From positions 1 to 36,773 of IMG/VR virus record IMGVR_UViG_3300042902_000033: a stretch of 36,773 bases of DNA; one strand, written 5' to 3'. Below are positions 4,697 to 27,167 of this stretch, one piece after another. The stretch comes from a virus. Below the pieces are notes generated by a model that ran no database searches, had not been told where the DNA came from, and was given only the letters and a program-made list of their open reading frames with translations. The position numbers and the translations under genes are program-made. Numbering within the stretch: position 1 is the stretch's first letter; the number at the start of each line of letters is the position of its first letter.

Positions 4697-5956
4697 TTAA
4701 TAGCCTGCCACAACGTCCATGACTTCGTAGTCATCTTCGTCATAATCTTGTTGATAATTACTGATAGCGAGTTGGTCAATGTATGACAAAGCGTCAACCA
4801 AGTCATCATGCACCCCTGCTGTGGGGAACATGATTAGCTGATCCTCAAACTCTTTCCAATCACCCTTTTCATTGAAGGAGATGCGCCCGTGCTCCATGCG
4901 TCCCTGTAGCGACCAAACCACCCGATCCACCTTCTTCTTGTTGCCGTGGGTGAGGTCATGGATGTGGGTATAGACATTGTTTTTACGCATCAGGTCAGAC
5001 AAATAAGGAAGCACCGCGTTCTTCAGAGCCCCTCGCTCAATGCCTGTGGCAATGGGCTTGTATTCTCTGACGGCCTTCAGGATGTGAACAGCCGTAGCCA
5101 TAATGTCCCAGCGCCCGTGCTCAATCTTCTCAACCCACCAATTCCCGTTGTCCTCAATCTTTACAATTGCAATGGCTGTTTCGTCAAGGCGGTTCTTTGC
5201 AGCCCCTGCATTCTTACCAACCTCCTCAAAGCCTGCCAAGTCAATGGCAATGACATAGGAGCCATGCTTAGGCTCAGGAGCTGTCTTAAACCATTCCTCT
5301 TTAAACACGTCAGAGCCTGCGTTGTCAAAGGAGGAAAGATATTCCTGCTTGAAGGCAAAGCTGCTGAGGGATCGTTGAGCAGCGTCAATCTCTTTGGGGT
5401 CAATGGTTTCGTTGTCTTTGGTGGTGAAGTGCCAGCTCTTCCATTCCTCGTCTGTTTCTTCAAGCCCAAGCTTGTAGATGTCGTAGAACCAGTTACGCCC
5501 AGAAGGCGTGGAAATGAATAAGGCCCGTCCCTTGCGGTCAGACAAGGAAGCACGAATAACCTTCTCCCAGATGTCTTGTTTAATAAAGGCAACCTCGTCC
5601 AGCACTACATAGGTGAGCGACATACCCCGCAAGCTGTCTGGATTGTCAGCCCCTCGTACAAATATCTTTTTGCCGTTTATCAGCGTAATTTCCAAGTTGT
5701 TCACATGGCTGCTCTTAATAACCTCTCTTCCAAGGTCATGGAGCAAGTCCCAAATAATTGACCGAGCTTGTCCCAACGTGGGAGCAATATACATGACAGC
5801 AGCGCCGTCAGGGCAGTTGAGCCCTTCAATCAGAAGGGTGATGGCTGACAACCTGCTCTTACCACAGCGACGCCCTGCCGCTACAATCTTGAACCGGGTG
5901 CTGTCACTAAACACTTTCTTTTGCCATTCAAGCAACTCAAATGACAAAGCCGTCAT
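4697..5956 (-). CDS. terL: Terminase large subunit (packaging ATPase-nuclease)
   Basis: This 419-residue packaging motor has clear motifs. Walker A is AGRRCGKS (27-34) and Walker B is YVVLDE (Asp120-Glu121). The coupling motif is STPSG (149-153). Nuclease acidic residues are Asp239 (VIAIDLAG) and the C-terminal HDDLVDALSY (His383, Asp384, Asp385, Asp388). The length is short but complete for a phage terminase. The ATG overlaps the stop of the small subunit gene (ATGA at 5953-5956), and the portal follows 8 nt after its stop. The protein cuts and pumps phage DNA into the procapsid through the portal. Confidence 0.95.
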   Translation of the reverse strand: MTALSFELLEWQKKVFSDSTRFKIVAAGRRCGKSRLSAITLLIEGLNCPDGAAVMYIAPTLGQARSIIWDLLHDLGREVIKSSHVNNLEITLINGKKIFVRGADNPDSLRGMSLTYVVLDEVAFIKQDIWEKVIRASLSDRKGRALFISTPSGRNWFYDIYKLGLEETDEEWKSWHFTTKDNETIDPKEIDAAQRSLSSFAFKQEYLSSFDNAGSDVFKEEWFKTAPEPKHGSYVIAIDLAGFEEVGKNAGAAKNRLDETAIAIVKIEDNGNWWVEKIEHGRWDIMATAVHILKAVREYKPIATGIERGALKNAVLPYLSDLMRKNNVYTHIHDLTHGNKKKVDRVVWSLQGRMEHGRISFNEKGDWKEFEDQLIMFPTAGVHDDLVDALSYIDQLAISNYQQDYDEDDYEVMDVVAGY

Positions 5957-6336
5957 ACGTCAATCACTCCCTCATCTTTGTTATACACCTGCTTAGCATC
6001 TGACAAGCCTGTTATGTTGATAGTGACTTGGGGAGTGCTGCTTCCGTTCTTAGCAGCATCAAAGGCACTCATTGGAAGAATACGCTCAGCACAGAACTTC
6101 AGAGCAGCAAACTGATCTTTGTCATCACTGTCCATTGCCTTGTGAATGAGGGTGGCAATAATCTTCTCACCTGTGGTTCCTAGGAGCCTTGCCTTGAACT
6201 CCTGAAGCCTTGAGGCCTCTCCGGGGGGTCTGCCAAGGGCTACACGGCCTCCGGGCTTCTTAGCGGCTATGGCAGCCTTTGGAGGACGTCCCTTACGCAC
6301 AGGAGGCTTTACAGGGATTGGTTTATCTTCTTTCAT
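5953..6336 (-). CDS. terS: Terminase small subunit (DNA recognition)
   Basis: This 127-residue, N-terminally basic protein lies just before large terminase and overlaps it by 4 nt. The N-terminus has two AT-hook-like cores (RKGRPPK and LGRPPGEASR). A helical region follows: LQEFKARLL, then KIIATLIHKAMD and QFAALKFCAERILPMSAF. This pattern matches small terminases of T7-like marine phages. The C-terminus (PQVTINITGL) should be a beta strand for ring assembly. AAAGGA lies before the ATG at 6336. It is the first gene of the late block and faces the noncoding region with the minus-strand promoter. Confidence 0.85.
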   Translation of the reverse strand: MKEDKPIPVKPPVRKGRPPKAAIAAKKPGGRVALGRPPGEASRLQEFKARLLGTTGEKIIATLIHKAMDSDDKDQFAALKFCAERILPMSAFDAAKNGSSTPQVTINITGLSDAKQVYNKDEGVIDV

Positions 6337-6593: not shown

Positions 6594-6984
6594 GCTTTTT
6601 GACAAAGAAGTGCAAATAAGTTGAAATTAACCCAATCTTTACTTAATCTTTACACAGAACAGCCCGCTGTTCCCCTTTAAGGCCCTTTCTGGGCTTCGGG
6701 ACGACAACTAAAAGAGGATGTCGTTAACAAGAATGGTGTCTTTTTCCTTTAAGGGAACTACGTTAGTGCAGATTCCTTTAAAGTATCCCCTTCTTTCTTC
6801 TTCTGTCCCTAATTTATTGTTAAATAACAACAACTTAACGGCCTTTGGTTACTTTTATGTCGTTGTCTATTTAGCTTCTTTTATGGTGCTTTATAGTGCT
6901 TTATAGCCTTTTGTCTGTTTTTAGCTTTTTGTAGGCTTTGGAGGCTCCTACAATATTTATAAGAACTCACGCACCCCTCCCCCC

Positions 6985-7329
6985 CTATCAAGCAAGCTCC
7001 GAAGGGTAATACGAATCACTCTCATTAGCCTTCAGAGCTGCTCTGGTGCTTGCATTGGTGCTATCAAAAGCATAGCAGGTGCTTACAAGGCTCAGCAGTG
7101 CTATCAAAACCATAGCAGACATATAAGCAAACACTTATATAAGCGGTGGCTTATGAGTGGGGGCTGCAGTGGGAGCCTATAAAGCACACCTATCAAGCCT
7201 TACCAACCGATAGCCAACACCTATCAAGCCTATTGTGTTGCTTATAAACAACAGCTAAGCACGCGATGTGCCAATCAAGAACTATGCCAAGGCTTTAAAC
7301 GGCTTCTAAGCCCTTCAAAGGGTATCAAG
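6985..7329. repeat. CTATCAA repeat cluster (iteron-like)
   Basis: CTATCAA occurs at 6985, 7061, 7101, 7190 and 7221, with a TATCAAG variant near 7323. Two copies sit in a 19-bp imperfect palindrome, TGCTATCAAAAGCATAGCA (7059-7077) and its near-copy (7099-7117), exactly 40 bp apart. Two more are in ACACCTATCAAGCCT (7186-7200 and 7217-7231), 31 bp apart. Spacings near multiples of a helical turn suggest protein-binding sites, either replication iterons or operators. The binding protein is unknown. Confidence 0.65.
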
Positions 7330-7371
7330 CCACTACCACACCTAGGAAAGTTATCCCGTCTGCACTCATAG

Positions 7372-7427
7372 TTATCCACAATTTGGAGGCTTGCCGACTC
7401 TTCTATAAGACCTAAGCCTGTGGATAA
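7372..7427. promoter_or_regulatory. Pair of inverted perfect DnaA boxes, candidate origin
   Basis: TTATCCACA (7372-7380, + strand) and its reverse complement TGTGGATAA (7419-7427) are both exact matches to the bacterial DnaA box, facing each other 38 bp apart. A weaker TTATCCCG lies at 7351. An AT-rich stretch follows (7428-7450). Together with the upstream CTATCAA repeats, this looks like a DnaA-dependent origin or a DnaA-regulated promoter region. Function is inferred from the motifs alone. Confidence 0.6.
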
Positions 7428-7481
7428 CTTTATAGAATTGAAAACAAAGGTTCTAAGGGTTTGTCCCTATGAAATAATTGT

Positions 7482-7508
7482 TGACAGGTGATCGCAGCGT
7501 GCTACACT
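7482..7508 (+). promoter_or_regulatory. Rightward promoter for early gene block
   Basis: A perfect -35 TTGACA (about 7482-7487) is followed after 15-16 bp by TACACT (7503-7508). The expected start lies near 7515, about 40 nt before the ATG at 7555, the first gene of the rightward block. The DnaA boxes end 55 bp upstream, so DnaA or the repeat-binding factor could affect this promoter. Confidence 0.7.
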
Positions 7509-7554: not shown

Positions 7555-7758
7555 ATGAAACACCTTGTACTAACACCCGCTGATCGTCTCAACTGCAAAG
7601 TCACGTTTAACGTGAACCGTTTTGAGGTTTATCACGCAGCTGGCTGGCTGCTGACTGCCGCGAGTGATAAGGCAGACTTAAAAGCCCAGCTCGCGGCCAA
7701 CGGCATCAAGGGCGCACTATTCGACGGTAGCGCCCAGCGCCGATACATGGCCTACTAA
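7555..7758 (+). CDS. Hypothetical early protein, 67 aa
   Basis: This is the first gene after the rightward promoter. The 67-residue product begins MKHLVLTPADRLNC. It appears to be a small mixed alpha/beta protein with a beta hairpin (CKVTFNVNRFEVYHA) followed by a helix (SDKADLKAQLAANG). AAAGG lies about 8 nt before the ATG. I do not recognise a family. First-transcribed phage genes often encode host-takeover or anti-defence factors, but nothing in the protein itself shows this. Confidence 0.65.
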   Translation: MKHLVLTPADRLNCKVTFNVNRFEVYHAAGWLLTAASDKADLKAQLAANGIKGALFDGSAQRRYMAY

Positions 7759-8056: not shown

Positions 8057-8105
8057 GCCTGCAAAGGCTTTGCAGTGTGTTTTTAATCAACTAACAGGGC
8101 ATATC

Positions 8106-8741
8106 ATGCAAGCAATCCGTACTCTCAAAGCAGCCAAAGCCATCGCAGGTTCACTCGGCAAGCCTTCAAAGATGCCGGGCCTGTCATATGGCATTAGCGC
8201 CAAGCGCTGCATTGTCGGGGCTAAGCTGGCAACCATTGAAGGCAGCGTCTGCCATGGCTGCTACGCTCTCAAAGCAAACTACTCATACCCTTCGGTCATG
8301 AAAGCCCATGAAACGCGCTACGAGTCCTTGGATCATCCACAATGGACAGAAGCCATGATGTTTCAAATTGATAAGAGTAAGACGGAATGGTTTCGCTGGC
8401 ATGATGCCGGTGACCTCCAAAGCTTTCAGCACCTGCTTAACATCGTCAAAATTGCAGAGGCTTTGCCTTTGGTTAAGTTCTGGATTCCAACACGTGAAAA
8501 GAAGATTGTGCATCAGTTCACCGACACCTTCGGAGCGTTCCCTGATAACTTAAACGTACGCGTGAGCGCCACAATGATTGACGGCGAAGTTCCCGCAGGC
8601 TTTGCTAACACGTCAACCGTACACGAAAGCAATGAAGCCAAAGGGACAACATGCGAGGCTTACAAGCACAACAACAAGTGCAATGATTGTCGTAAGTGCT
8701 GGGATAAGGAGGTTTCTAACGTTTCGTATAAAAAGCACTAA
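8106..8741 (+). CDS. Gp88-family phage protein with two cysteine clusters
   Basis: The 211-residue product (start MQAIRTLKAAKAIAG, ATG 8106) matches what I know of the Gp88 family named from mycobacteriophage gene 88. Marks are Cys35 and Cys49-x2-Cys52-Tyr (SVCHGCYALK), then FRWHDAGDLQS, FWIPTRE, LNVRVSA, and a C-terminal cluster with Cys183 and Cys192-x2-Cys195-x2-Cys198-Trp. The paired Cys clusters suggest an iron-sulfur or zinc centre. The PTRE-type block recalls phage Gp37/Gp68-like proteins. The biochemical role is not established. The upstream ATG at 8070 has no better ribosome site and adds a non-typical N-terminus, so the inner start is preferred. Confidence 0.8.
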   Translation: MQAIRTLKAAKAIAGSLGKPSKMPGLSYGISAKRCIVGAKLATIEGSVCHGCYALKANYSYPSVMKAHETRYESLDHPQWTEAMMFQIDKSKTEWFRWHDAGDLQSFQHLLNIVKIAEALPLVKFWIPTREKKIVHQFTDTFGAFPDNLNVRVSATMIDGEVPAGFANTSTVHESNEAKGTTCEAYKHNNKCNDCRKCWDKEVSNVSYKKH

Positions 8742-9622: not shown

Positions 9623-9766
9623 ATGTACAAAATTATTCATGTATCAAGCGGCATTGTGGCAATCACCTTCAACGAGCGCTCTTATGCCCTCGATTGGCTT
9701 GCCGACAACAACAATCTGAGCGGAGAGCCCGCTAATTTATATAAACTAGTCAAGGCTATGTCATGA
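9623..9766 (+). CDS. Hypothetical early protein, 47 aa
   Basis: This 47-residue frame (MYKIIHVSSGIVAITFNERS) has AAAGG 5 nt before its ATG, and its TGA overlaps the next ATG (ATGA at 9763-9766). The fold may be one beta hairpin and a helix (SYALDWLADNN). Family not recognised. Ribosome site and coupling make translation likely. Confidence 0.6.
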   Translation: MYKIIHVSSGIVAITFNERSYALDWLADNNNLSGEPANLYKLVKAMS

Positions 9767-10143
9767 AAGTATTTGTCTACTTCAACCTTCACCGAAAGGT
9801 GTTCAGCGTCAAGGCTCTGGAAGGGCCAATGAAGGGCCGCGTAGTGGCTCACCTTCATGATGTGCTGCTGGCCGACGCCACCTTTAAGGTGTCCGAAGCA
9901 GGCCGTCAGCGTGTCCTTCGTGAGCGGCGTAAAAATGTTCATGCTGGCGTTAAGGGTGATTGGCTTGAGGGCAATGATAAAACTCATTCATTTGTCATCA
10001 TCAATGGGGCCGCCGCAGTGTATAATCCGTACAAGTATGCTTCATTCGTTCACCTATACGGAGAGCATCCTGTAACAGCCGCCCACCTTGTCGCATTGGC
10101 TGTAGATGAGAGCCGCCGCCCTTCAATTCACTACTGGAACTAA
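9763..10143 (+). CDS. Conserved phage protein of unknown function, 126 aa
   Basis: The 126-residue product starts MKVFVYFNLHRKVFSVKAL and continues with GPMKGRVVAHLHDV, then VSEAGRQRVLRERRKNVHAG. The pattern FNLHRK-SVKAL-GRV-H then AGRQRV-RKNVHAG is one I know from many phages infecting Pseudomonadota, always without a known role. Basic stretches (RQRVLRERRKNVHAG) suggest nucleic acid contact. It is coupled to the 47-residue gene upstream by ATGA. The start is secure. Confidence 0.8.
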   Translation: MKVFVYFNLHRKVFSVKALEGPMKGRVVAHLHDVLLADATFKVSEAGRQRVLRERRKNVHAGVKGDWLEGNDKTHSFVIINGAAAVYNPYKYASFVHLYGEHPVTAAHLVALAVDESRRPSIHYWN

Positions 10144-11669: not shown

Positions 11670-13274
11670 ATGAGCAGCAGTTTTATCAAGCACGTGGCCT
11701 GTGAAGCCTGTGGCAGCAGTGATGGGAACGCCCTATATGACGACGGCCACACCCACTGCTTTGCCTGTGGCATCACAGCAGGAGAGAATGACAGGGAGGA
11801 CAGCTACCGAGGCAGGGAGGAAATGAACAGGCAACAATCAATGAAAGTTCCAATGGAAATCAAAGGTGAAATCAAGAGCATTCCTGAGAGAGGAATCACC
11901 CGCTCTACATGTGCTAAATATGAGGTGAGACAAGATGAAAACAGCCACTATTACCCTTACACTGACGGAAAAGGAGCTGTTGTTGCTTCAAAGGTCAGAG
12001 GTGTTGCGGATAAATCTTTCTCTATCCGGGGAGACTTTAAAAGCGCTCAGTTGTTCGGTCAATCCCTATTCAGTGCTGGGGGAAAGGCAGTCACCATTTG
12101 CGAAGGTGAGCTGGACGCTTTAGCGGCCTTTCAGATGCAGGGGAGCCTGTACCCTACGGTGAGTGTGAGAAATGGCGCTCAGGCGGCTCTGAAGGACTGC
12201 AAAGCAGCCTTTGAGTGGCTTGACTCCTTCGACTCCGTAGTTATCTGCTTCGATGCAGACGAACCGGGACAGAAAGCAGCTAAGGAGGTGGCAGAACTCT
12301 TCGGAGGTAAGAGCAAGGTTGTTAAGCACTTGGCGGGCTACAAGGATGCCTGTGACTACTTAGCAGCAGGCAAGGAGAAGGATTTCATCAACACATGGTG
12401 GAGGGCTGAGGAGTTTAAGCCTGAAGGCATTGTGACGGTGAGCGACATCAAGGAGAGAATGCTAACTCCTCCGAAGGCGGGGCTTCCTTGGTGCTTCGAC
12501 ACCCTAACACAGCTCACGTATGGGCGGCGTCAAGGGGAAATCTATGGCTTCGGAGCAGGTGTTGGAGTTGGTAAGACTGACGTGTTTACGCAGCAGATTA
12601 GCTATGACATTGACACACTGGGCGAGAAGGTGGGGGTGATTTACTTGGAGCAGAATGTCGTAGAAACTGCACAGCGAGTGGCTGGGAAACTTGACCGAAA
12701 ACTGTATCATATTCCAGATGCAGGATGGACACGAGAGCAATACGAAGACAGTGTGGAAAGGCTTGACAAACGGAAGCAGCTCTATATGATGGAACACTTC
12801 GGAGCGATGGATTGGGCAACGGTGAAGGGCATTATTCGTTATTTCGCCAAAGCTTATGACATTAAGATGATTTATTTAGACCACCTGACGGCACTAGCCG
12901 CCAATGAACAAGACGAACGGAGAGCACTCGATGGAATTATGGCAGACATGGCCTCTCTTGCTCAGTCTGACGGCCTTATTATTCATTTTGTCTCACATCT
13001 TACAACTCCTGAGGGCAAGGCCCATGAAGAAGGAGGACGGGTTTTGGAGAAGCACTTTACAGGTAGCCGGGCTATTGCTAGATGGAGCCACTATATGTTT
13101 GGGTTGGAACGTGATAAGCAAGCTGCTGATCCTGTGAAGCGCCAGACAACAACCTTCCGAGTTTTGAAGGATAGGTTTGCAGGCAGCGCCACAGGTGAGA
13201 AGTTTGGGCTGCATTACGACAGAAAGACAGGATATTTACATGAATGTCCTCTTATTGATGAAAGTGGGCTATAA
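11670..13274 (+). CDS. DNA primase-helicase (T7 gp4 type)
   Basis: This 534-residue bifunctional replication enzyme starts with a zinc-binding domain with Cys11, Cys14, Cys30 and Cys33 (CEAC, CFAC). A TOPRIM primase domain follows, with Glu145 and Asp149 (CEGELDALA) and Asp195/Asp197 (CFDADEPG). The hexameric helicase domain has Walker A GAGVGVGKT (295-303), a Walker B-type strand MIYLDHLTAL, and HFVSHL. It unwinds the fork and lays RNA primers. AGGAAAG precedes the ATG. It overlaps the next gene by one base (TAATG). No internal start equal to T7 gp4B is evident. Confidence 0.95.
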   Translation: MSSSFIKHVACEACGSSDGNALYDDGHTHCFACGITAGENDREDSYRGREEMNRQQSMKVPMEIKGEIKSIPERGITRSTCAKYEVRQDENSHYYPYTDGKGAVVASKVRGVADKSFSIRGDFKSAQLFGQSLFSAGGKAVTICEGELDALAAFQMQGSLYPTVSVRNGAQAALKDCKAAFEWLDSFDSVVICFDADEPGQKAAKEVAELFGGKSKVVKHLAGYKDACDYLAAGKEKDFINTWWRAEEFKPEGIVTVSDIKERMLTPPKAGLPWCFDTLTQLTYGRRQGEIYGFGAGVGVGKTDVFTQQISYDIDTLGEKVGVIYLEQNVVETAQRVAGKLDRKLYHIPDAGWTREQYEDSVERLDKRKQLYMMEHFGAMDWATVKGIIRYFAKAYDIKMIYLDHLTALAANEQDERRALDGIMADMASLAQSDGLIIHFVSHLTTPEGKAHEEGGRVLEKHFTGSRAIARWSHYMFGLERDKQAADPVKRQTTTFRVLKDRFAGSATGEKFGLHYDRKTGYLHECPLIDESGL

Positions 13275-13618: not shown

Positions 13619-13739
13619 AGCCGTTATTGGCAGAATGATGGAAATGGAAACCAAGTATTACGATCTTCAGGAGAAGTATCAAGAGCTTATCCACCAGTTT
13701 GAAGAACTAAAGGCGCGTTATGAAGAGGCTAGTAGTTGA
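13605..13739 (+). CDS. Short coiled-coil protein, 44 aa
   Basis: This 44-codon frame overlaps both neighbours (13605-13618 and 13720-13739). It has an excellent ribosome site, AGGAGAGG, 6 nt before the ATG. The product (MTSIEAVIGRMMEMETKYYD) is one long amphipathic helix with leucine/tyrosine heptads, likely a coiled coil. Function unknown. It may serve partly to couple translation into the polymerase gene. Confidence 0.6.
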   Translation: MTSIEAVIGRMMEMETKYYDLQEKYQELIHQFEELKARYEEASS

Positions 13740-15435
13740 CATTGAGACCACGCTAGATCATAAAACCATCTGGCTTTGCTGCACGAAGAATATTGACACT
13801 GGGGAAACACACAAATGGTATCAGGCAAAAGCATTTCAGGACTATATCGAGGACGCTACGTTACTGATCGGACACAACCTAATCAGTTTCGATGCCTACC
13901 TGTTGAACAGCTTATGGAAGACACGGATAGTTTTGAACAAGTGCTACGACACACTTCTAGTCTCTCGTTTGCTCAACCCAAGCCGCGAAGGGGGCCACAG
14001 CCTCGCCGCATGGGGCAGCACGTTAGGCACGAAGAAGATTGACTACAAAGCAACTTGGCAGTGGTTGGCGGGGCGTAGGGAGGAATATGCTGGGGAGTGC
14101 TACGACAGCCCTCACTTCGGCCTTCTAAACATCTATTGTGAGCGTGATATTGATGTGACAGCCCTGCTGTATCAGCACTTGATAGAGGAGACAGAGGCTC
14201 AGAAGTTCTCACAGGAAAGTGTGGAGCTGGAGCATTCTGTAGCCGCTATCATTGCCAAGCAGGAACGTAATGGATTTAAACTGGACTTGCCTTATGCAAC
14301 CGTGCTACTTACTAGAATCAAAGGAAAGCTGGACGGCATTTATGAACAAATGCAAGAGAGATGGCCTCCCTACATCGTTGAGCGAACAAGCGAGAAAACC
14401 GGGAAGCCTCTTAAACCAGCAACTATTGTCTTCAACCCCGGAAGCAGACAACAGATTGGAGAGAAGCTTGTTGAACTTGGATGGAAGCCTTCCACTTTTA
14501 CACCTACAGGGCAGCCAGTTGTTGATGAGGGAAGCTTGGATGGATGCCTCCTCCCAGAAGCAAAGCTAATCAGTGAATATCTGATGCTACAGAAGAGGGT
14601 TGCACAGATAGAAAGCTGGATGGAGGCTGTGGAGGATGATGGAAGGGTTCATGGACGGGTAACCACCAATGGTGCTGTGACGGGCCGTATGACTCATTCC
14701 AGCCCCAACATGGCTCAGATACCTAACAGCGGTTCTGTGTTTGGCCCTGAGTGCAGAGAGTGTTGGAGTGTGGAGGAAGGGAATGTGCTAGTAGGTGCAG
14801 ACGCTTCAGGTTTGGAATTGAGAATGCTTGCCCACTATATGAAGGATGAAAGCTATGTTAGAACCGTGGTTGAAGGAAGTTCTAAGGATGGAACTGATGT
14901 ACACTCGGTTAATCAAAGAACTGCGGGACTTAATACTAGAGACGAGGCAAAAACATTTATTTATGCCTTTCTCTACGGAGCCGGAAATGCGAAGATTGGC
15001 TCGATTGTCGGAGGATCAGCTAGTGCTGGTGGCAAACTTAAAGAGAAGTTTCTTAAAGGAACTCCAGCTTTACGAAGCCTCATTGACACAGTTGCAACAA
15101 TCGCTTCCAGCGGCAGTGTGCCCGGCCTTGATGGAAGACGAATCCTTGTCAGAAGCGAACACGCAGCACTAAACAGCCTGCTTCAAGGGGCTGGTGCAGT
15201 GGTAATGAAGAAGGCTCTGGTGATCTTTGATGCTAAAATACGACAGAACAAATGGCCTGTGAAGATAGTTGTCAATGTTCATGACGAATTTCAGTGGGAG
15301 ACCACCGAATCTTATGCTACAATCACTGGTGAAGCTGCGGTGCAGAGCATCGTTGAAGCCGGTGAGTTTTATAAGCTACGTTGTCCTTTAAATGGAGAAT
15401 TTAAGTATGGAAAAAGTTGGAGAGAAACCCACTAA
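13720..15435 (+). CDS. DNA polymerase, family A with 3'-5' exonuclease
   Basis: This 571-residue T7-type replicase starts with a proofreading exonuclease: VVDIET (Asp7, Glu9), GHNLISFDAYLL (Asp58) and YCERDIDVT. The polymerase domain has motif A with Asp361 (GADASGLELRMLAHY), the O-helix RDEAKTFIYAFLYGAG (Arg407, Lys411, Tyr415), and motif C VNVHDEF (His521-Asp522). The O-helix Tyr equals the position called 762 in E. coli Pol I and is Tyr as in T7. The protein is shorter than T7 polymerase (about 700), so the thioredoxin-binding loop is probably reduced or absent. It overlaps both neighbouring genes. Confidence 0.95.
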   Translation: MKRLVVDIETTLDHKTIWLCCTKNIDTGETHKWYQAKAFQDYIEDATLLIGHNLISFDAYLLNSLWKTRIVLNKCYDTLLVSRLLNPSREGGHSLAAWGSTLGTKKIDYKATWQWLAGRREEYAGECYDSPHFGLLNIYCERDIDVTALLYQHLIEETEAQKFSQESVELEHSVAAIIAKQERNGFKLDLPYATVLLTRIKGKLDGIYEQMQERWPPYIVERTSEKTGKPLKPATIVFNPGSRQQIGEKLVELGWKPSTFTPTGQPVVDEGSLDGCLLPEAKLISEYLMLQKRVAQIESWMEAVEDDGRVHGRVTTNGAVTGRMTHSSPNMAQIPNSGSVFGPECRECWSVEEGNVLVGADASGLELRMLAHYMKDESYVRTVVEGSSKDGTDVHSVNQRTAGLNTRDEAKTFIYAFLYGAGNAKIGSIVGGSASAGGKLKEKFLKGTPALRSLIDTVATIASSGSVPGLDGRRILVRSEHAALNSLLQGAGAVVMKKALVIFDAKIRQNKWPVKIVVNVHDEFQWETTESYATITGEAAVQSIVEAGEFYKLRCPLNGEFKYGKSWRETH

Positions 15436-16047: not shown

Positions 16048-16748
16048 TGACGGAACGCCCTAAGACGGCGTTCATTGATGCTGACTATTTGGTCTATAGG
16101 GTTGGGTTTTCTTCCAAGGAAGATACCGAAGCTGTAGCCTGTAGTCGGGTTCAAGAGCAGCTATTTAATACGGTGTATGTGCAGCTAAAGTGTGAAGATT
16201 ACGATGCGTTCATTACAGGGAAGACAAACTTCCGGTTTGAAACGGCAACAACTCACCCCTATAAGGGTAATAGGAAGCTGTCTGAGAAGCCTCCTCACTA
16301 CGCTGCATTGAGAGACAAGCTGGTGGCTCTAGGGGCTACAATCAGTGAGAATCAAGAAGCTGACGATGATGTGGGAATTGCCTCTACTAAGTATGAGGGG
16401 TGGATTGTTCATGTGGATAAGGACTTGAATCAGCTTCCGGGCTGGCATTACAACCCTGTGAAGGATGAGCAATACTATGTGACTCCCTTTGAAGGGCTTG
16501 TAAGCTTCTACACACAGCTCTTAACAGGAGATAAAATTGATAACATTGTTGGCTTGTATGGAATTGGCCCTGTTAAAGCTAAGAAGCTTCTGGCAGGTTG
16601 TGAGACAGAACAGCAGCTCTACCAAGCAGTAATCGCAGCTTACGCTGCTCATGGGGAAAAGCCTGAAAGGGTGTTAGAGAACGGCCAGTTGCTGTGGTTG
16701 AGTCGCTTTGAGGGACAACGATGGAGCCTGCCAAGTGAAGAGGAATAG
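16047..16748 (+). CDS. 5'-3' exonuclease / flap endonuclease
   Basis: The 233-residue product has PIN-type nuclease features: FIDADYLVYR (Asp11, Asp13) at the N-terminus, then the acidic cluster ENQEADDDVG and VDKDLNQLPG. A helix-three-turn-helix region follows (LLTGDKIDNIVGLYGIGPVKAKKLL) that grips the DNA duplex. This is the T5/T4 RNase H-like family that removes primers and may degrade host DNA. Its ATG overlaps the SSB stop (TAATG). It ends 14 nt into the HNH gene. Confidence 0.92.
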   Translation: MTERPKTAFIDADYLVYRVGFSSKEDTEAVACSRVQEQLFNTVYVQLKCEDYDAFITGKTNFRFETATTHPYKGNRKLSEKPPHYAALRDKLVALGATISENQEADDDVGIASTKYEGWIVHVDKDLNQLPGWHYNPVKDEQYYVTPFEGLVSFYTQLLTGDKIDNIVGLYGIGPVKAKKLLAGCETEQQLYQAVIAAYAAHGEKPERVLENGQLLWLSRFEGQRWSLPSEEE

Positions 16749-22266: not shown

Positions 22267-22682
22267 TCCCCTGTAAGCATTTGTTCAGAAAGCCTCTTGG
22301 CCCGTTCAGGGGTTTGCTCTGCCCAAAGGCTGTTAAGCATCTGCCCTGCTGCCTTCTCATACCGACCATTGGCGATGCTTTCTAGGGTGTTCTTAAACCC
22401 TTTCAAGCCCTCCACCCCCATTTGAAAGGACATATTCACCAAGGCCCCCTTACGAGCCTCATCCATGCCTTTGAACCACGGGAAAGCTGCTTCTAAGGCC
22501 TTGATGCGGGTGTCCACATCGTTATTTAGAAGAAACGCACTTTCCTCGGGAGATAAGCCACCTCCTTTCCGTTTGTCAATTAATCGACCAACACCAATAG
22601 TCCAGAAGCCTAAGTGGTCTTGGTAGGCCGTTAGCACCTCCCCTTCGTCCCTTCGTAGTTGTTTGATTAGGCTTTCTTTCAT
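22257..22682 (-). CDS. Endolysin, T4-type lysozyme (GH24)
   Basis: This 141-residue muramidase cleaves the glycan strands of peptidoglycan. The catalytic triad has exactly T4 lysozyme spacing: Glu13 (RRDEGEVL), Asp22 (YQDHLG) and Thr28 (FWTIGVGR). The rest (SFQMGVEGLKGFKNTL) fits the family. There is no signal peptide or SAR helix, so it needs the holin to reach the wall. It overlaps the internal virion gene upstream by 4 nt. Confidence 0.95.
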   Translation of the reverse strand: MKESLIKQLRRDEGEVLTAYQDHLGFWTIGVGRLIDKRKGGGLSPEESAFLLNNDVDTRIKALEAAFPWFKGMDEARKGALVNMSFQMGVEGLKGFKNTLESIANGRYEKAAGQMLNSLWAEQTPERAKRLSEQMLTGEWK

Positions 22683-24841
22683 TGTCCCATCTCCTCTGCT
22701 GCTGCTGGAATAATAAAGGCTTGCTGGAAAGCTGCTCTTGTAGGAGCATCCATCCCTTTCATCAGTGAAGATGTAAACTCAGCAATCTTCCCTTGTTTAA
22801 TACCTGAAGACATAAACTGAGCAGCCGCCTGTGGGTCAAGCATTAGCTCTGACATCTTCTTATTAAACTCAGCTTGGTTCCCCTGCTGAAGGTAGCGTAT
22901 TCCTGCTTTCATAATAGAAACTGTCCGACTTAAAACATCAATACTTTCACCAATTGGCTTGCCTAAGCCGCCCTCTATGCCTCCAATCTTTGAAGACAGC
23001 TCACGTGCCTTCCCTGTTCTTTGTAGGTCTGCCAATACATCTTTAACTGTAGACACCTCGCCTGCGCTGAGTACATCACTAAGGTTCTTGTAACGTGGAA
23101 GGCCTGTGGAGCTTTTAATGGTTGCTGCTGCGTTCTCAACAGCTGCTGCAAAGACTCCTGCACTTTCTTTATCAAGAGGTGTATTGAGCTTCTTAGATAA
23201 GAAGTTACCGACTTCCATTCTGTTAAGCTTATTACTATACTTGGTATAAGAAGTTATGTAATTCGTCCACAAACCGTCAGAAGACTTATCTAAAGCAGAA
23301 TCAATAAACTTCTTCACATTAGCGGCTGTCTTAGCTTCTGCCTCTGGCAAACCACCCATGAAAGGTCTACCTGCCTTAGCGGCATATCCTGTGATGTCCC
23401 GGTTAATTGATTGACGAACATTTTCATACAAGTCACGACTATTCAAAATACCGTTCTCATCTGCTTTAGACAATATCTTGTCTTTAGTCTCTTGCAGAAT
23501 AGCCTTAACTTCGTCCTTCCGAGCACCTCTAATAGCAGCGTCAATCTGGTCAGTTAGGTCAGAAGCCTTCAAAGGAAAGAAGCCGTTCTGTTCCAAGCTA
23601 TTTAACTGAAACTGTTTTAGGCCTATTTCTGACTTACGCTGCGCCGCGATGTCTTTAAAAACTGTTGCTGTGCCTGAATATTCAGGGATACGCTGAGCCA
23701 TCTCAGTATAACGGCCCGGTACTCTAGGGTATCCGGGAACAGGGCTGTATGTATTTGATAATGTTGTCTGTCTCGCTGCTTCTGACTCAGCTTTGCCCGC
23801 TTCTTGAAGAGCATTAATTCGAGAACTATACTTATCAGAAATCTCCTTTTCCAGTTTAGTCACGATGCCACCAGCGGTATCAGACTGGTTAAGAGCTGTT
23901 TCACGCATGGGGCCCGTAACGGAGCCACGCTCCGCAGCCACAGCAGCACGCTCAGCAGGTGTTCCAGCAATTGAGTCAATAGCCCGTAGACGTGCGGCTT
24001 GGTTGTCAGCTGTGCGTACCTCAAAGAACCTGCCTGTCCCTGCTGCGGAAGACAGTTTCTTCTGTGCCGCCATTAGGTCAACAGCAGAGGGGAGGTCTGC
24101 AAGTGTCTCAGCAACTGTTGGGCGACTACCTGTTACTAGCTGCTTAGCATCCCTCATCAGTTCAATAGCAGCTGTCTTTTCCGGCCCAACAAGGCTGTCT
24201 AGATGGGTTCGCATGGCTGTTTCACGACCAGAAGCTGTAAGGCCTTTAACAGCTCCGTAGACGGCCCCTAGTGTCTTCAGGCCCCCTTCAACTACAGGCC
24301 CCAATACAGCACCTACAGCCTGCTGTGTAAGCTTGCTCTCTGTAAACTGGTCAGCAGGGGCACGTACAGGCTCTACAGAGGCCAGCACAGCACCTGTACC
24401 TGAAGCACGTCCAAGAGCAGCTAAGCCGCCTCCAGTGGCTGCACGGGTAAGGCCTACAAGCTTATTAGCTGGGCTAAGAACAGCACCGGCAAGCTGAATA
24501 GGGTCAAAGCCTGTGCTGCCTTGTGCTGCCCGTGCCTGCTCAGTAGCTTGATCATAGGAGCGAACATTGGCATTAGCTCCTTCTCGAATGCTTTGACCAA
24601 ATGGGAGAGTGTTAGCAAGTAGTTGATTAACACCCAGCAGAGGGTCTACAACAGCTCCTTTAGCAAATCTAGCAATAGGACTCCCCATACCAAACATCTG
24701 TTGAATGATCGAAGGAGGAGCTACAGGCTCAGCGGGCTGTGTAGCTGTGGTTCCTGTCTCCATCTGAAATCCGGCAGGAAGACCCCCTACAGGAGCAGCT
24801 TCCGGAGCCTGCTCTATAATAAAACCTTGCGGTAAAGCCAT
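22679..24841 (-). CDS. Internal virion (ejection) protein, 720 aa
   Basis: The largest protein (720 residues) begins MALPQGFIIEQAPEAAPVGG and repeats LPxGF at about residue 21 (LPAGFQME), an N-terminal pattern familiar from podovirus ejection proteins. It is Ala/Gly-rich and helical, with Gly-rich apolar stretches (TRAATGGGLAALGRASG, QAVGAVLGPVVEGGL) that could insert in a membrane. No lytic transglycosylase motif was seen. Its place as third internal protein after tail genes supports a role in carrying DNA across the envelope. Confidence 0.8.
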   Translation of the reverse strand: MALPQGFIIEQAPEAAPVGGLPAGFQMETGTTATQPAEPVAPPSIIQQMFGMGSPIARFAKGAVVDPLLGVNQLLANTLPFGQSIREGANANVRSYDQATEQARAAQGSTGFDPIQLAGAVLSPANKLVGLTRAATGGGLAALGRASGTGAVLASVEPVRAPADQFTESKLTQQAVGAVLGPVVEGGLKTLGAVYGAVKGLTASGRETAMRTHLDSLVGPEKTAAIELMRDAKQLVTGSRPTVAETLADLPSAVDLMAAQKKLSSAAGTGRFFEVRTADNQAARLRAIDSIAGTPAERAAVAAERGSVTGPMRETALNQSDTAGGIVTKLEKEISDKYSSRINALQEAGKAESEAARQTTLSNTYSPVPGYPRVPGRYTEMAQRIPEYSGTATVFKDIAAQRKSEIGLKQFQLNSLEQNGFFPLKASDLTDQIDAAIRGARKDEVKAILQETKDKILSKADENGILNSRDLYENVRQSINRDITGYAAKAGRPFMGGLPEAEAKTAANVKKFIDSALDKSSDGLWTNYITSYTKYSNKLNRMEVGNFLSKKLNTPLDKESAGVFAAAVENAAATIKSSTGLPRYKNLSDVLSAGEVSTVKDVLADLQRTGKARELSSKIGGIEGGLGKPIGESIDVLSRTVSIMKAGIRYLQQGNQAEFNKKMSELMLDPQAAAQFMSSGIKQGKIAEFTSSLMKGMDAPTRAAFQQAFIIPAAAEEMGQ

Positions 24842-24847
24842 AATAAA

Positions 24848-26128
24848 TTACCTTCTTGGTTGCCAAGTTAAACCACCATCCGTAGACATGATTTTCTCAC
24901 CTGTTGTTGGGTTACTTGCGTATTGGGGGGCCTTCGGAGCGGCCGTGGCTGCTGCTGGCGCACCATAATAAAGATCAACTCCTTGAGACTTCCTTCGAGC
25001 TTCGATGATCTTTTTAGTTCTTTCTCCGCTCTTATCAATTGCCTCATTAAATCGATCAAGAGCAGCGATAGAAGCTGCATTGTCGTTCTTACCAAAAGCT
25101 GTTATAATACCGTTCGCTTGACGAAGAACGTCTGAGTCTGTTTGAACACCTTTGGCAGCGTCTGTTTTAATGTTGGTGGCTTCTGTGAAGGCTGCTAAAT
25201 ATTGCTCATAAGCCATACTAGCAGGTGTGGAACGTCCTGTTGCATTTGCTAGTCGATACCGTTGGTTATTCAAGGGGCCTAACTGAAGCAAAGGGACACC
25301 TGTCGCTGGGTCTGGTTTTAAACTTGCTAAAGGTTTTGCAAAGGTTTCTTGCTGGGCAATCCCTGAATTGATCTTAGCAAGGTCTTCATCCTCTGACTTC
25401 TGCAAACCAACAGCAAGCTTAGGAGCACCCTTCAATGCAGATACGAGAGCAAGATTGGCTTGTCGATTCTCCTGCCGATTAAGAGCATTATCTCTTGCTA
25501 ATGCCGCAGCAGCAGCTAACCGTTCTGTTTGTCGTCGAGCATCCTCTGTTTGTTTTGACTCAAACTGAGCCAAGGCCGCAGCACGGCTTTCTGCTTTATC
25601 TGCTGAAATCTGCAAAGAGGCAACCAGAGTTTTTGGGTCGCCAAACTGAGAAGCTGTGGAAAGAAGTTGAGCCTGTGTTGGATTTGGGCCAAGAGTTTTT
25701 ACAGCCTCCCTGAATGCAGCTATTTGAGCCTGTGAATTCTTCGTTGCATCAACCCCTTGCTGCTTAGCTTCCACATCCAAACCAGTAAGACGTATCTGTT
25801 GAGCTGCCTGAGAAGCCTGCAAAGCTACGTCATTAAACCCAAGCTGAGCAGCTCCTCGTGCATATTGCTGCAAGCCCTGCGGAGTTGTTGTGTCAAACTG
25901 AGAAGCCAGTTGCTTCAAAGCTGTGGCTTTCTGGAGCTGAGGGTCTTGACCGCCAAGCATACCGCCTACGACGCCGCCTAGCTGATTAGCCCCTTTGTAG
26001 ATGCCCATAGTGGCCCGTTCAAAGGGATCAAGCTTGGCATACTGAAGAGCCTCTGTATTTAGGGCTGCTGCTCGTTGTTGTTGAATGTCTTCCGGGTTTG
26101 CTCCGAAGAGGCTGGGAGAAGTTGCCAT
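24848..26128 (-). CDS. Internal virion protein, 426 aa
   Basis: The 426-residue product begins MATSPSLFGANPEDIQQQRA, then YAKLDPFERATMGIYKGANQ, LGGVVGGMLGG and a helical Gln/Ala-rich body (QQYARGAAQLGFNDVALQAS). The SLFG-P-QQQR, then GIY-GANQLGG layout is typical of internal virion proteins in T7-like marine podoviruses. The C-terminus resembles an exposed tag (MSTDGGLTWQPRR). AAAGGA precedes the ATG by 7 nt. Confidence 0.78.
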   Translation of the reverse strand: MATSPSLFGANPEDIQQQRAAALNTEALQYAKLDPFERATMGIYKGANQLGGVVGGMLGGQDPQLQKATALKQLASQFDTTTPQGLQQYARGAAQLGFNDVALQASQAAQQIRLTGLDVEAKQQGVDATKNSQAQIAAFREAVKTLGPNPTQAQLLSTASQFGDPKTLVASLQISADKAESRAAALAQFESKQTEDARRQTERLAAAAALARDNALNRQENRQANLALVSALKGAPKLAVGLQKSEDEDLAKINSGIAQQETFAKPLASLKPDPATGVPLLQLGPLNNQRYRLANATGRSTPASMAYEQYLAAFTEATNIKTDAAKGVQTDSDVLRQANGIITAFGKNDNAASIAALDRFNEAIDKSGERTKKIIEARRKSQGVDLYYGAPAAATAAPKAPQYASNPTTGEKIMSTDGGLTWQPRR

Positions 26129-26138
26129 AATTATTCCT

Positions 26139-27167
26139 TTAACTCATGTTTCCAACATCTAACGAACCACCACCCATCGGATAGTAGCCGCCAGTGGTTT
26201 GTGCTTGTTGATAGCCACCACCAGCGCCGTAGTATGATGGGTTTTGTCCCGTGCTAAACAGCCCTGCAAAGCCCTGCTGAAGCTGTTGGTTATTAGCCAA
26301 GCCCGTGAGAGCTGTTCCAAAAGGACTATAAGCGTCTGCTCTTCCTTGAATCTGAGCAGCATTCGTACCCCCTTGAAGCAACGTGTTGCCCACATTAGCA
26401 CCTGCTTGAGCCGACCTACCACCGACATTGAGACCAAGATCAAGAGCCCCTTGACCAGCACTCTCCAAGTTCTGAGCCAAGCCAAACTGTGTCTTATAAG
26501 GGTTGTAGCCTGCGGAGGTAAGATCAATACCAGCACCAAGCAAGCCTTGACCAAACTGTGTTTGTAGGCGTCCCTGCTCTTGTGCTTGCCCTTGAAGGCC
26601 AAGATTCTGCTGTGCAAGGCTGTTGTAATAGGCCTGAAGCTCTGGGTTAGAGGCTCCCATGCCTCCTGCGTCTGTAGCCCCCACAGCAAGCCCTGAACGG
26701 CCCTGTTGTAGCTGAGCGTTACGAATACCTGCAAGCTGTCTCTCCTGACCCGGAGCCAAAGCAGCCTGTTGGCTTTGAAGCCACTGCTGACTAGCTGCTT
26801 CGGGGCTTTGAGCCAGATAGCCCTGACCAAGGTTGAATAAGCCTTGACCGGCCTGCCCTGCCTGATTAGCCCAATCCATACCTGAGCCACCCGCCTGAGC
26901 AAGGAAGGCATCCCGCTGAGCAGCAAGCTCAGGAGACAGGGTGTAACCTGCTGAGTTAACATTGCCTTGGTCGTCTGTGCCGAACTGGCTAGAACCGAAG
27001 GCTGTAGTGACGCCTACTGGTCGGAAGCGTTGTGCATCGGCAGCAATTCGTGCTGCTTCTAGCTGTGCGTTTGCTTGTGTGGCGGCCGCCTTCTTAGCAG
27101 AATTACCGCCGATTACACCACCTAAGAGGGAAGACCCTCCAATAATAGCGCCTGAAATCCAAGGCAT
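26139..27167 (-). CDS. Internal virion protein with glycine-zipper N-terminus, 342 aa
   Basis: The 342-residue product starts with an apolar Gly-rich helix (SGAIIGGSSLLGGVIGG) able to span a membrane. A long Gln/Ala/Gly-rich region follows (QGLFNLGQGYLAQSPEAASQ). The C-terminus is Gly/Tyr-rich (YYGAGGGYQQAQTTGGYYP). This matches the smallest internal (ejection) protein of podoviruses, comparable to T7 gp14. GGGAG lies 8 nt before the ATG. It follows the cupin gene with a one-base gap. Confidence 0.78.
   Translation of the reverse strand: MPWISGAIIGGSSLLGGVIGGNSAKKAAATQANAQLEAARIAADAQRFRPVGVTTAFGSSQFGTDDQGNVNSAGYTLSPELAAQRDAFLAQAGGSGMDWANQAGQAGQGLFNLGQGYLAQSPEAASQQWLQSQQAALAPGQERQLAGIRNAQLQQGRSGLAVGATDAGGMGASNPELQAYYNSLAQQNLGLQGQAQEQGRLQTQFGQGLLGAGIDLTSAGYNPYKTQFGLAQNLESAGQGALDLGLNVGGRSAQAGANVGNTLLQGGTNAAQIQGRADAYSPFGTALTGLANNQQLQQGFAGLFSTGQNPSYYGAGGGYQQAQTTGGYYPMGGGSLDVGNMS

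Follow-up and report, generated by a model that had tools for sequence, protein, structure and literature searches.

Organization of the genome

The window, i.e. the whole stretch of DNA analysed here, is the 36,773-bp virus contig IMGVR_UViG_3300042902_000033, the ends of which overlap by 127 bp. This apparent 127-bp DTR was read as an assembler overlap, and the genome is therefore described as circular, with a closed length of 36,646 bp. The left-strand genes code for the terminase large subunit (TerL; 4697–5956, minus strand) and for portal, coat and tail proteins, and the right arm carries a T7-type primase-helicase (11670–13274, plus strand, phrog_239), a family A DNA polymerase (13720–15435, plus strand, phrog_17), an exonuclease, ThyX and RNR. 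An earlier note on this DNA had placed the region under study between divergent operons. This position was borne out: TerL and its adjoining ORF (5953–6336, minus strand) lie on the left, and the early ORFs run to the right from 7555, the first of them (7555–7758, plus strand) encoding 67 residues without family match. Three large late ORFs of the minus strand (22679–24841, 24848–26128 and 26139–27167; 720, 426 and 342 residues) have no PHROG or Pfam match. The early genes at 8070–8741 and 9763–10143 match the Pfam GP88 and mycobacteriophage L5 gp82 families, the phage not being a mycobacteriophage.

A profile search with PF00940 detected no single-subunit RNA polymerase in the window genome or in 13 relatives, the control HTVC019P being recovered with E = 4e-106. 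The gene expected of Autographiviridae or T7-like phages was not found in these genomes, and the comparison drawn in the earlier note with T7-like phages, which start from transcripts of their own RNA polymerase, loses its premise. T7-type promoters were considered, relatives containing CACTATAGG, and were rejected because the polymerase gene was not found.

Among the matches listed, the identity of the window TerL to cultured phages does not exceed about 32%; those at 28–32% are T5-like and Thermus phages, SIO1 is absent from them, and no homology to the terminase/structural module of known Zobellviridae members was found. These values point to a deeply separate uncultured lineage, which is known through IMG/VR contigs. 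A megablast of phage records returned no near relative of the window, and scans of GTDB genomes with TerL and with the conserved tract element described below were both empty, giving no prophage, no co-binned copy and no host.

DnaA boxes, repeats and putative early promoter of the window

Two exact copies of the DnaA box TTATCCACA, of the E. coli R1/R4 type, are found at 7372–7380 (plus strand) and 7419–7427 (minus strand), confirming the inverted pair described previously; the two boxes face each other and are 47 bp apart. A third exact box lies at 16412, inside the exonuclease ORF. Over the whole window, three exact boxes compare with 0.25 expected, a number reached in none of 100 shuffles, and a chance origin of the boxes is excluded by these shuffles together with the relatives.

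Five exact CTATCAA repeats, all on the plus strand, occupy 6985–7227 (starts 6985, 7061, 7101, 7190 and 7221), and 11 exact copies are present across the window where 4.75 are expected. Six motifs of this type had been announced; five are exact in the region and a sixth is obtained only through near-variants such as GTATCAA at 7322. The copy at 6985 abuts the G-tract, an arrangement also seen in L051, L054, L055, L099 and L147, and at least three copies occur in only 8 of 137 loci. With the five CTATCAA copies as the directly repeated unit, no cognate initiator of an iteron (Rep-type) origin was recognised among the ORFs searched. IHF was rejected as the reader of CTATCAA: its consensus is about 5-fold enriched in the island yet common on the late side, and the window island has no exact match. 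The two 19-bp palindromic copies reported earlier do exist as two copies 40 bp apart, and are really a 21-nt direct repeat, GTGCTATCAAAA[G/C]CATAGCAG (7058–7078 and 7098–7118, plus strand, 95% identical), with inverted symmetry limited in each copy to a short pair of arms, GCTAT...ATAGC.

A predicted sigma-70 early promoter, TTGACA-16-TGCTACACT with an extended -10, is located at 7481–7508 (plus strand), 53 bp past the second DnaA box. This call is a consensus match only, one of two scan hits, and shuffles give 2.0, so that the count is not above chance.

A conserved G-tract element bounds the region

The most conserved feature of the region had been overlooked in the earlier note. It consists of a GGGGGGGAGGGG tract (CCCCTCCCCCCC; 6974–6985, minus strand), a near-universal element of the family and the boundary of the variable island, and of a block TTNTNNGGAGCCTC-N(7)-YACAAAAA (6924–6955, minus strand) fixed at about 17–19 nt from it, the whole element covering 6924–6985 on the minus strand. 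A further conserved motif, AATTAGGGACAG, is found on the late side of the tract (6803–6814, minus strand). In 53 of 53 aligned loci, a GGGGGGAGGGG tract is followed after about 17–19 nt by TTNTNNGGAGCCTC-N-ACAAAAA, and apart from this element the early-side intergenic DNA of the TerL relatives aligns poorly. A pattern scan of viral contigs highlighted the element at more than 120 places, the true ones sharing one spacing, and the 103 loci that could be read for TerL all have it 0.5–1.8 kb downstream of the tract and on the same strand. A single-copy conserved motif, GTGAGGGGCTATGTAGCACC, is present in 87 loci, 105–198 bp from the tract on its early side, and is missing from the window.

The tract and block are reminiscent of mitochondrial CSB II, and an R-loop primer, a packaging site or a recombination boundary are candidate roles. 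We take the tract to resemble both CSB II and the G-stretch of ColE1 RNA II, as a similar G-rich tract near a putative origin, presumably placed to stabilise an RNA-DNA hybrid; this is no more than a resemblance. An RNA hairpin in the conserved block was rejected, the pairs being mostly unvarying or broken with few compensatory changes. A cohesive end at the G-tract found no support, since contig starts show no pile-up there: only L028, of about 30 contigs starting near the tract, begins inside it.

DnaA boxes are concentrated on the early side of the tract

The relatives were analysed as about 139 non-redundant IMG/VR loci anchored on the conserved tract CATAGGGGGGAGGGG, the near side being defined as the 800 bp on its early side. 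In these loci, 144 exact DnaA boxes were counted in 100.8 kb of early-side island DNA, versus 8 in 1,255.5 kb elsewhere (about 9.6 by chance), an enrichment of 224-fold in the tract-anchored count and of 272-fold in the consensus scan. The late side of the same loci had no exact box over its initial 2.5 kb and none in its noncoding DNA. At least one exact box is carried by 52 of the 139 loci (about 38%). Among boxes with one mismatch, TTATACACA (27-fold), TTATGCACA (26-fold), TTATCAACA (9-fold), TTATTCACA (8-fold) and TTGTCCACA (5-fold) are enriched and every other variant stays at 4-fold or below, the near-miss enrichment being restricted to changes tolerated by DnaA. Permuted DnaA consensuses were never as enriched as the observed box. 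The relatives show that the boxes are under selection in this family, as judged from these counts, and the prediction that host DnaA binds them is a strong one.

As in an oriC-type region, consensus boxes are clustered in one intergenic region, two in the window and three to five in some relatives, with a pair at 27–52 bp from the tract in L150, L129, L155 and L167. Their distance to the predicted early promoter varies from about 50 to over 200 bp, a distance of about 50 bp being shared by the window, L002 and L046.

Sites resembling those of other host regulators

A de novo motif search over 560 bp of the early-side island returned DnaA boxes (178 sites in 57 loci), AGTnAGTACTnACT (127 in 50), NtrC-type sites (106 in 48), Fur-type sites (83 in 39) and sigma-54 promoters (60 in 56). 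Scans with published or standard consensuses gave island enrichments of 116–175-fold for NtrC, 129-fold for NrdR, 43–106-fold for sigma-54, 33-fold for Fur and 18-fold for SlmA, most other regulators tested showing about 0–5-fold. CRP, FNR, PurR, TyrR, PhoB and most other control consensuses received no confirmation in the island scan, and HapR/LuxR and FNR sites were rejected for want of island enrichment. Shuffled DNA and permuted consensuses back all the enriched regulators but Fur, which is weaker: the shape of its motif and the 33-fold value are in its favour, and 4 of 200 permuted consensuses equal it at a loose setting.

In L101, L130, L163, L170 and about 30 other loci, sigma-54 promoters with pairs of NtrC-type enhancer sites are found at 300–440 bp from the tract toward the early genes. 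The promoter, TGGCAC-N5-TTGC, faces the early genes. The NtrC-type sites, for which about 100–170 bp upstream is the usual range, form two clusters relative to the inferred sigma-54 start, one at about -134 (centres -132 to -142) and the other at about -164 (centres -160 to -174). In the four named loci, the two sites and the promoter have the geometry of a working enhancer-promoter pair. This arrangement is seen in relatives only, the window having a single weak sigma-54-like match on the opposite strand.

Arrays of the palindrome AGTnAGTACTnACT, which resembles the SlmA consensus GTGAGTACTCAC, lie within 25–80 bp of the tract in L013, L023, L093, L120 and others. SlmA is a tentative reader of this palindrome, and another TetR-family protein could read it; SlmA itself was reported not to regulate transcription (PMC3116907). 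In 123 loci, the position 5–36 bp from the tract is taken by an SlmA-like site 39 times, by a DnaA box 9 times and by a Fur site 3 times; CTATCAA occupies it in the window. Over the island as a whole, the sites resembling those of other regulators occur either instead of DnaA boxes or next to them. Fur-like and SlmA-like sites are closer to the G-tract than to the early promoter, and 24 of 137 loci are altogether devoid of recognised operators. Further palindromes without assigned regulator (GGGTTAACCC, TCTTATATAAGA and TAATACTnnAGTATTA) occur in several island loci and are possible host operators.

Turnover of the island between close relatives

On the TerL tree, the presence of DnaA boxes changes 24 times, shuffling giving a mean of 29.4 and a minimum of 25. 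The operator sets differ in 47 of the 57 pairs with more than 95% TerL identity. In most of the pairs compared, homology on the late side (87–96%) breaks off 3–97 bp from the tract and resumes in the early genes, and this arrest at the G-tract between close relatives suggests that operator cassettes have apparently been swapped. The record of L012 (G001) holds two versions of the island (1–2150 and 36095–38246), with a tract element 97% identical and with operators that differ by end, NrdR/SlmA-like at one and Fur plus TCTTATATAAGA at the other. What the compared sequences show directly is which sites are present, how specific they are, that they are confined to the island and how they turn over.

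An oriC-type origin should keep its boxes among close relatives sharing the same replisome, and this was not observed, L120/L132, L096/L132 and L046/L047 being different. In the first two pairs, identity over the primase DNA is about 84%, yet boxes are present in one member and absent in the other, a pattern difficult to reconcile with an obligate initiator role for DnaA. DnaA probably does not have such a role.

Interpretation of the island

The explanation that fits best, and for which we see about even chances, is that the region may be a hypervariable docking island for host regulators upstream of the predicted early promoter, with the early operon under their control and DnaA as the input recognised here. 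The island would sit between the near-invariant G-tract and the early promoter, each phage possessing a particular assortment of host-regulator operators, and these operators would be traded as cassettes breaking at the tract. A family without any findable RNA polymerase of its own has to rely on the host's transcription for its start. In the window, DnaA would act through the two facing high-affinity boxes just upstream of the sigma-70 early promoter, and the CTATCAA repeats would serve another factor. Occupancy by DnaA and its effect on transcription, which we infer from these sites, would most likely adjust the firing of the early operon, and hence the start of phage replication, to the growth or replication state of the host; NtrC and sigma-54 appear to play the corresponding role in relatives. 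Counting against this reading, the distances between boxes and promoter are loose for direct activation, Fur-like and SlmA-like sites lie nearer the tract, some loci have no operators and the promoter does not exceed shuffles.

The earlier note had proposed either a DnaA-dependent start or DnaA control of the early promoter. The binding of DnaA is strongly supported by the enrichment and the degeneracy of the boxes in relatives, and early promoter control fits better than a DnaA-dependent start, because close relatives lack the boxes despite sharing the replication genes, and because sites for other regulators occupy the same island. An origin at which host DnaA melts the region, the self-loading primase-helicase and family A polymerase of the phage then taking over for bidirectional theta replication, is unlikely. 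It would account for the clustering of the boxes at one place of the genome, for their number and proximity to the tract in some relatives, and for the cumulative GC-skew minimum, which in 10 of 10 near-complete genomes falls 57–1,705 bp from the tract toward the early genes. All genes run away from the region, so that transcription explains the skew equally well and gene direction alone accounts for it; moreover, an exact box is carried by little more than a third of the loci, and boxes are lacking in phages whose late genes are the same and whose primase and polymerase are similar. The lack of conservation in close relatives, which the earlier note had set as the finding that would tell against its proposal, was observed for single phages and not for the family.

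Somewhat less probable still, though a serious alternative, is an island acting as a decoy, in which many phage copies would soak up DnaA (SlmA, Fur, NrdR and NtrC in relatives) and so stop host replication, alter division control or derepress host genes. DnaA titration by plasmid-borne boxes is established (PMC5835720), and exact sites of strong predicted affinity in 2–5 copies per genome, placed without being bound to a promoter, with interchangeable targets and with SlmA-like sites among them though SlmA does not regulate genes, are what such an island would contain. However, NtrC and sigma-54 sites are spaced as in a functional promoter, the sites keep to a single island and are not spread, and two boxes per genome matter only at high copy number. 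It is very doubtful that the G-tract and block are the functional core, as an R-loop primer site or a packaging site or genome end, with the DnaA boxes as incidental neighbours: the invariance and fixed spacing of the tract, the strand, which would yield a G-rich RNA toward the late genes, and the breaks in homology agree with this, but it explains the tract and not the more than 200-fold DnaA enrichment, the contig ends leave a cohesive end unsupported and the block has little covariation. Taken together, the region looks more like a host-sensing switch or a decoy than a fixed DnaA-driven origin, and early-operon control, origin and decoy are not mutually exclusive.

Relation to known systems and significance

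T4-like cyanomyoviruses carry NtcA and Pho boxes, and binding of PhoB was shown by EMSA in S-PM2d (PMC3037559, PMC10976474). As in these cyanophages, sites of host global nutrient regulators are put at the phage's own promoters; unlike them, where many promoters answer to one or two regulators, a single late/early island here gathers sites for at least five regulators and is swapped between close relatives. In the pO/pR region of lambda, host DnaA binds beside promoters that adjoin the replication region, and transcription is thereby stimulated (PMC3985674 and references therein). Lambda relies on an initiator (O) and a loader (P) of its own and recruits DnaB from the host, whereas the window phage carries a primase-helicase of the T7 type, and nothing like the O initiator was recognised in it. 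The two NtrC-type sites of L101, L130, L163 and L170, 30 bp apart upstream of TGGCAC-N5-TTGC, recall the glnA promoter glnAp2, with the difference that the promoter of the relatives drives phage early genes. The window shares with the Zobellviridae roseophage SIO1 an early set of ThyX, primase-helicase, PolA, exonuclease and RNR, an RNA polymerase that was not found and several structural genes on the other strand; unlike the window, SIO1 (first 28.9 kb) lacks both an exact DnaA box and a GGGGAGGG tract.

A swappable island, bounded by a constant G-tract, that takes up operator arrays for DnaA, SlmA-like, Fur, NtrC/sigma-54 and NrdR-like regulators, and so reads or disarms host cell-cycle, division, iron and nitrogen control as the early genes start, is a proposal that we hold at slightly less than even chances. 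A single swappable multi-regulator island appears new: in a limited search of the literature, neither a multi-regulator cassette system nor phage genomes with DnaA plus SlmA, NtrC or Fur sites were found. The combination of SlmA-like, NtrC and Fur sites points to gammaproteobacterial hosts, as far as operator types can indicate them.

In the usual view, phages override host regulation. A common uncultured lineage appears here to wire the growth, nitrogen, iron and division regulators of the host into its early control region, with inputs apparently exchanged between near-identical phages, which raises the question of whether host regulators are sensed or sponged. The operator sets constitute testable predictions on the hosts and on the conditions of infection.
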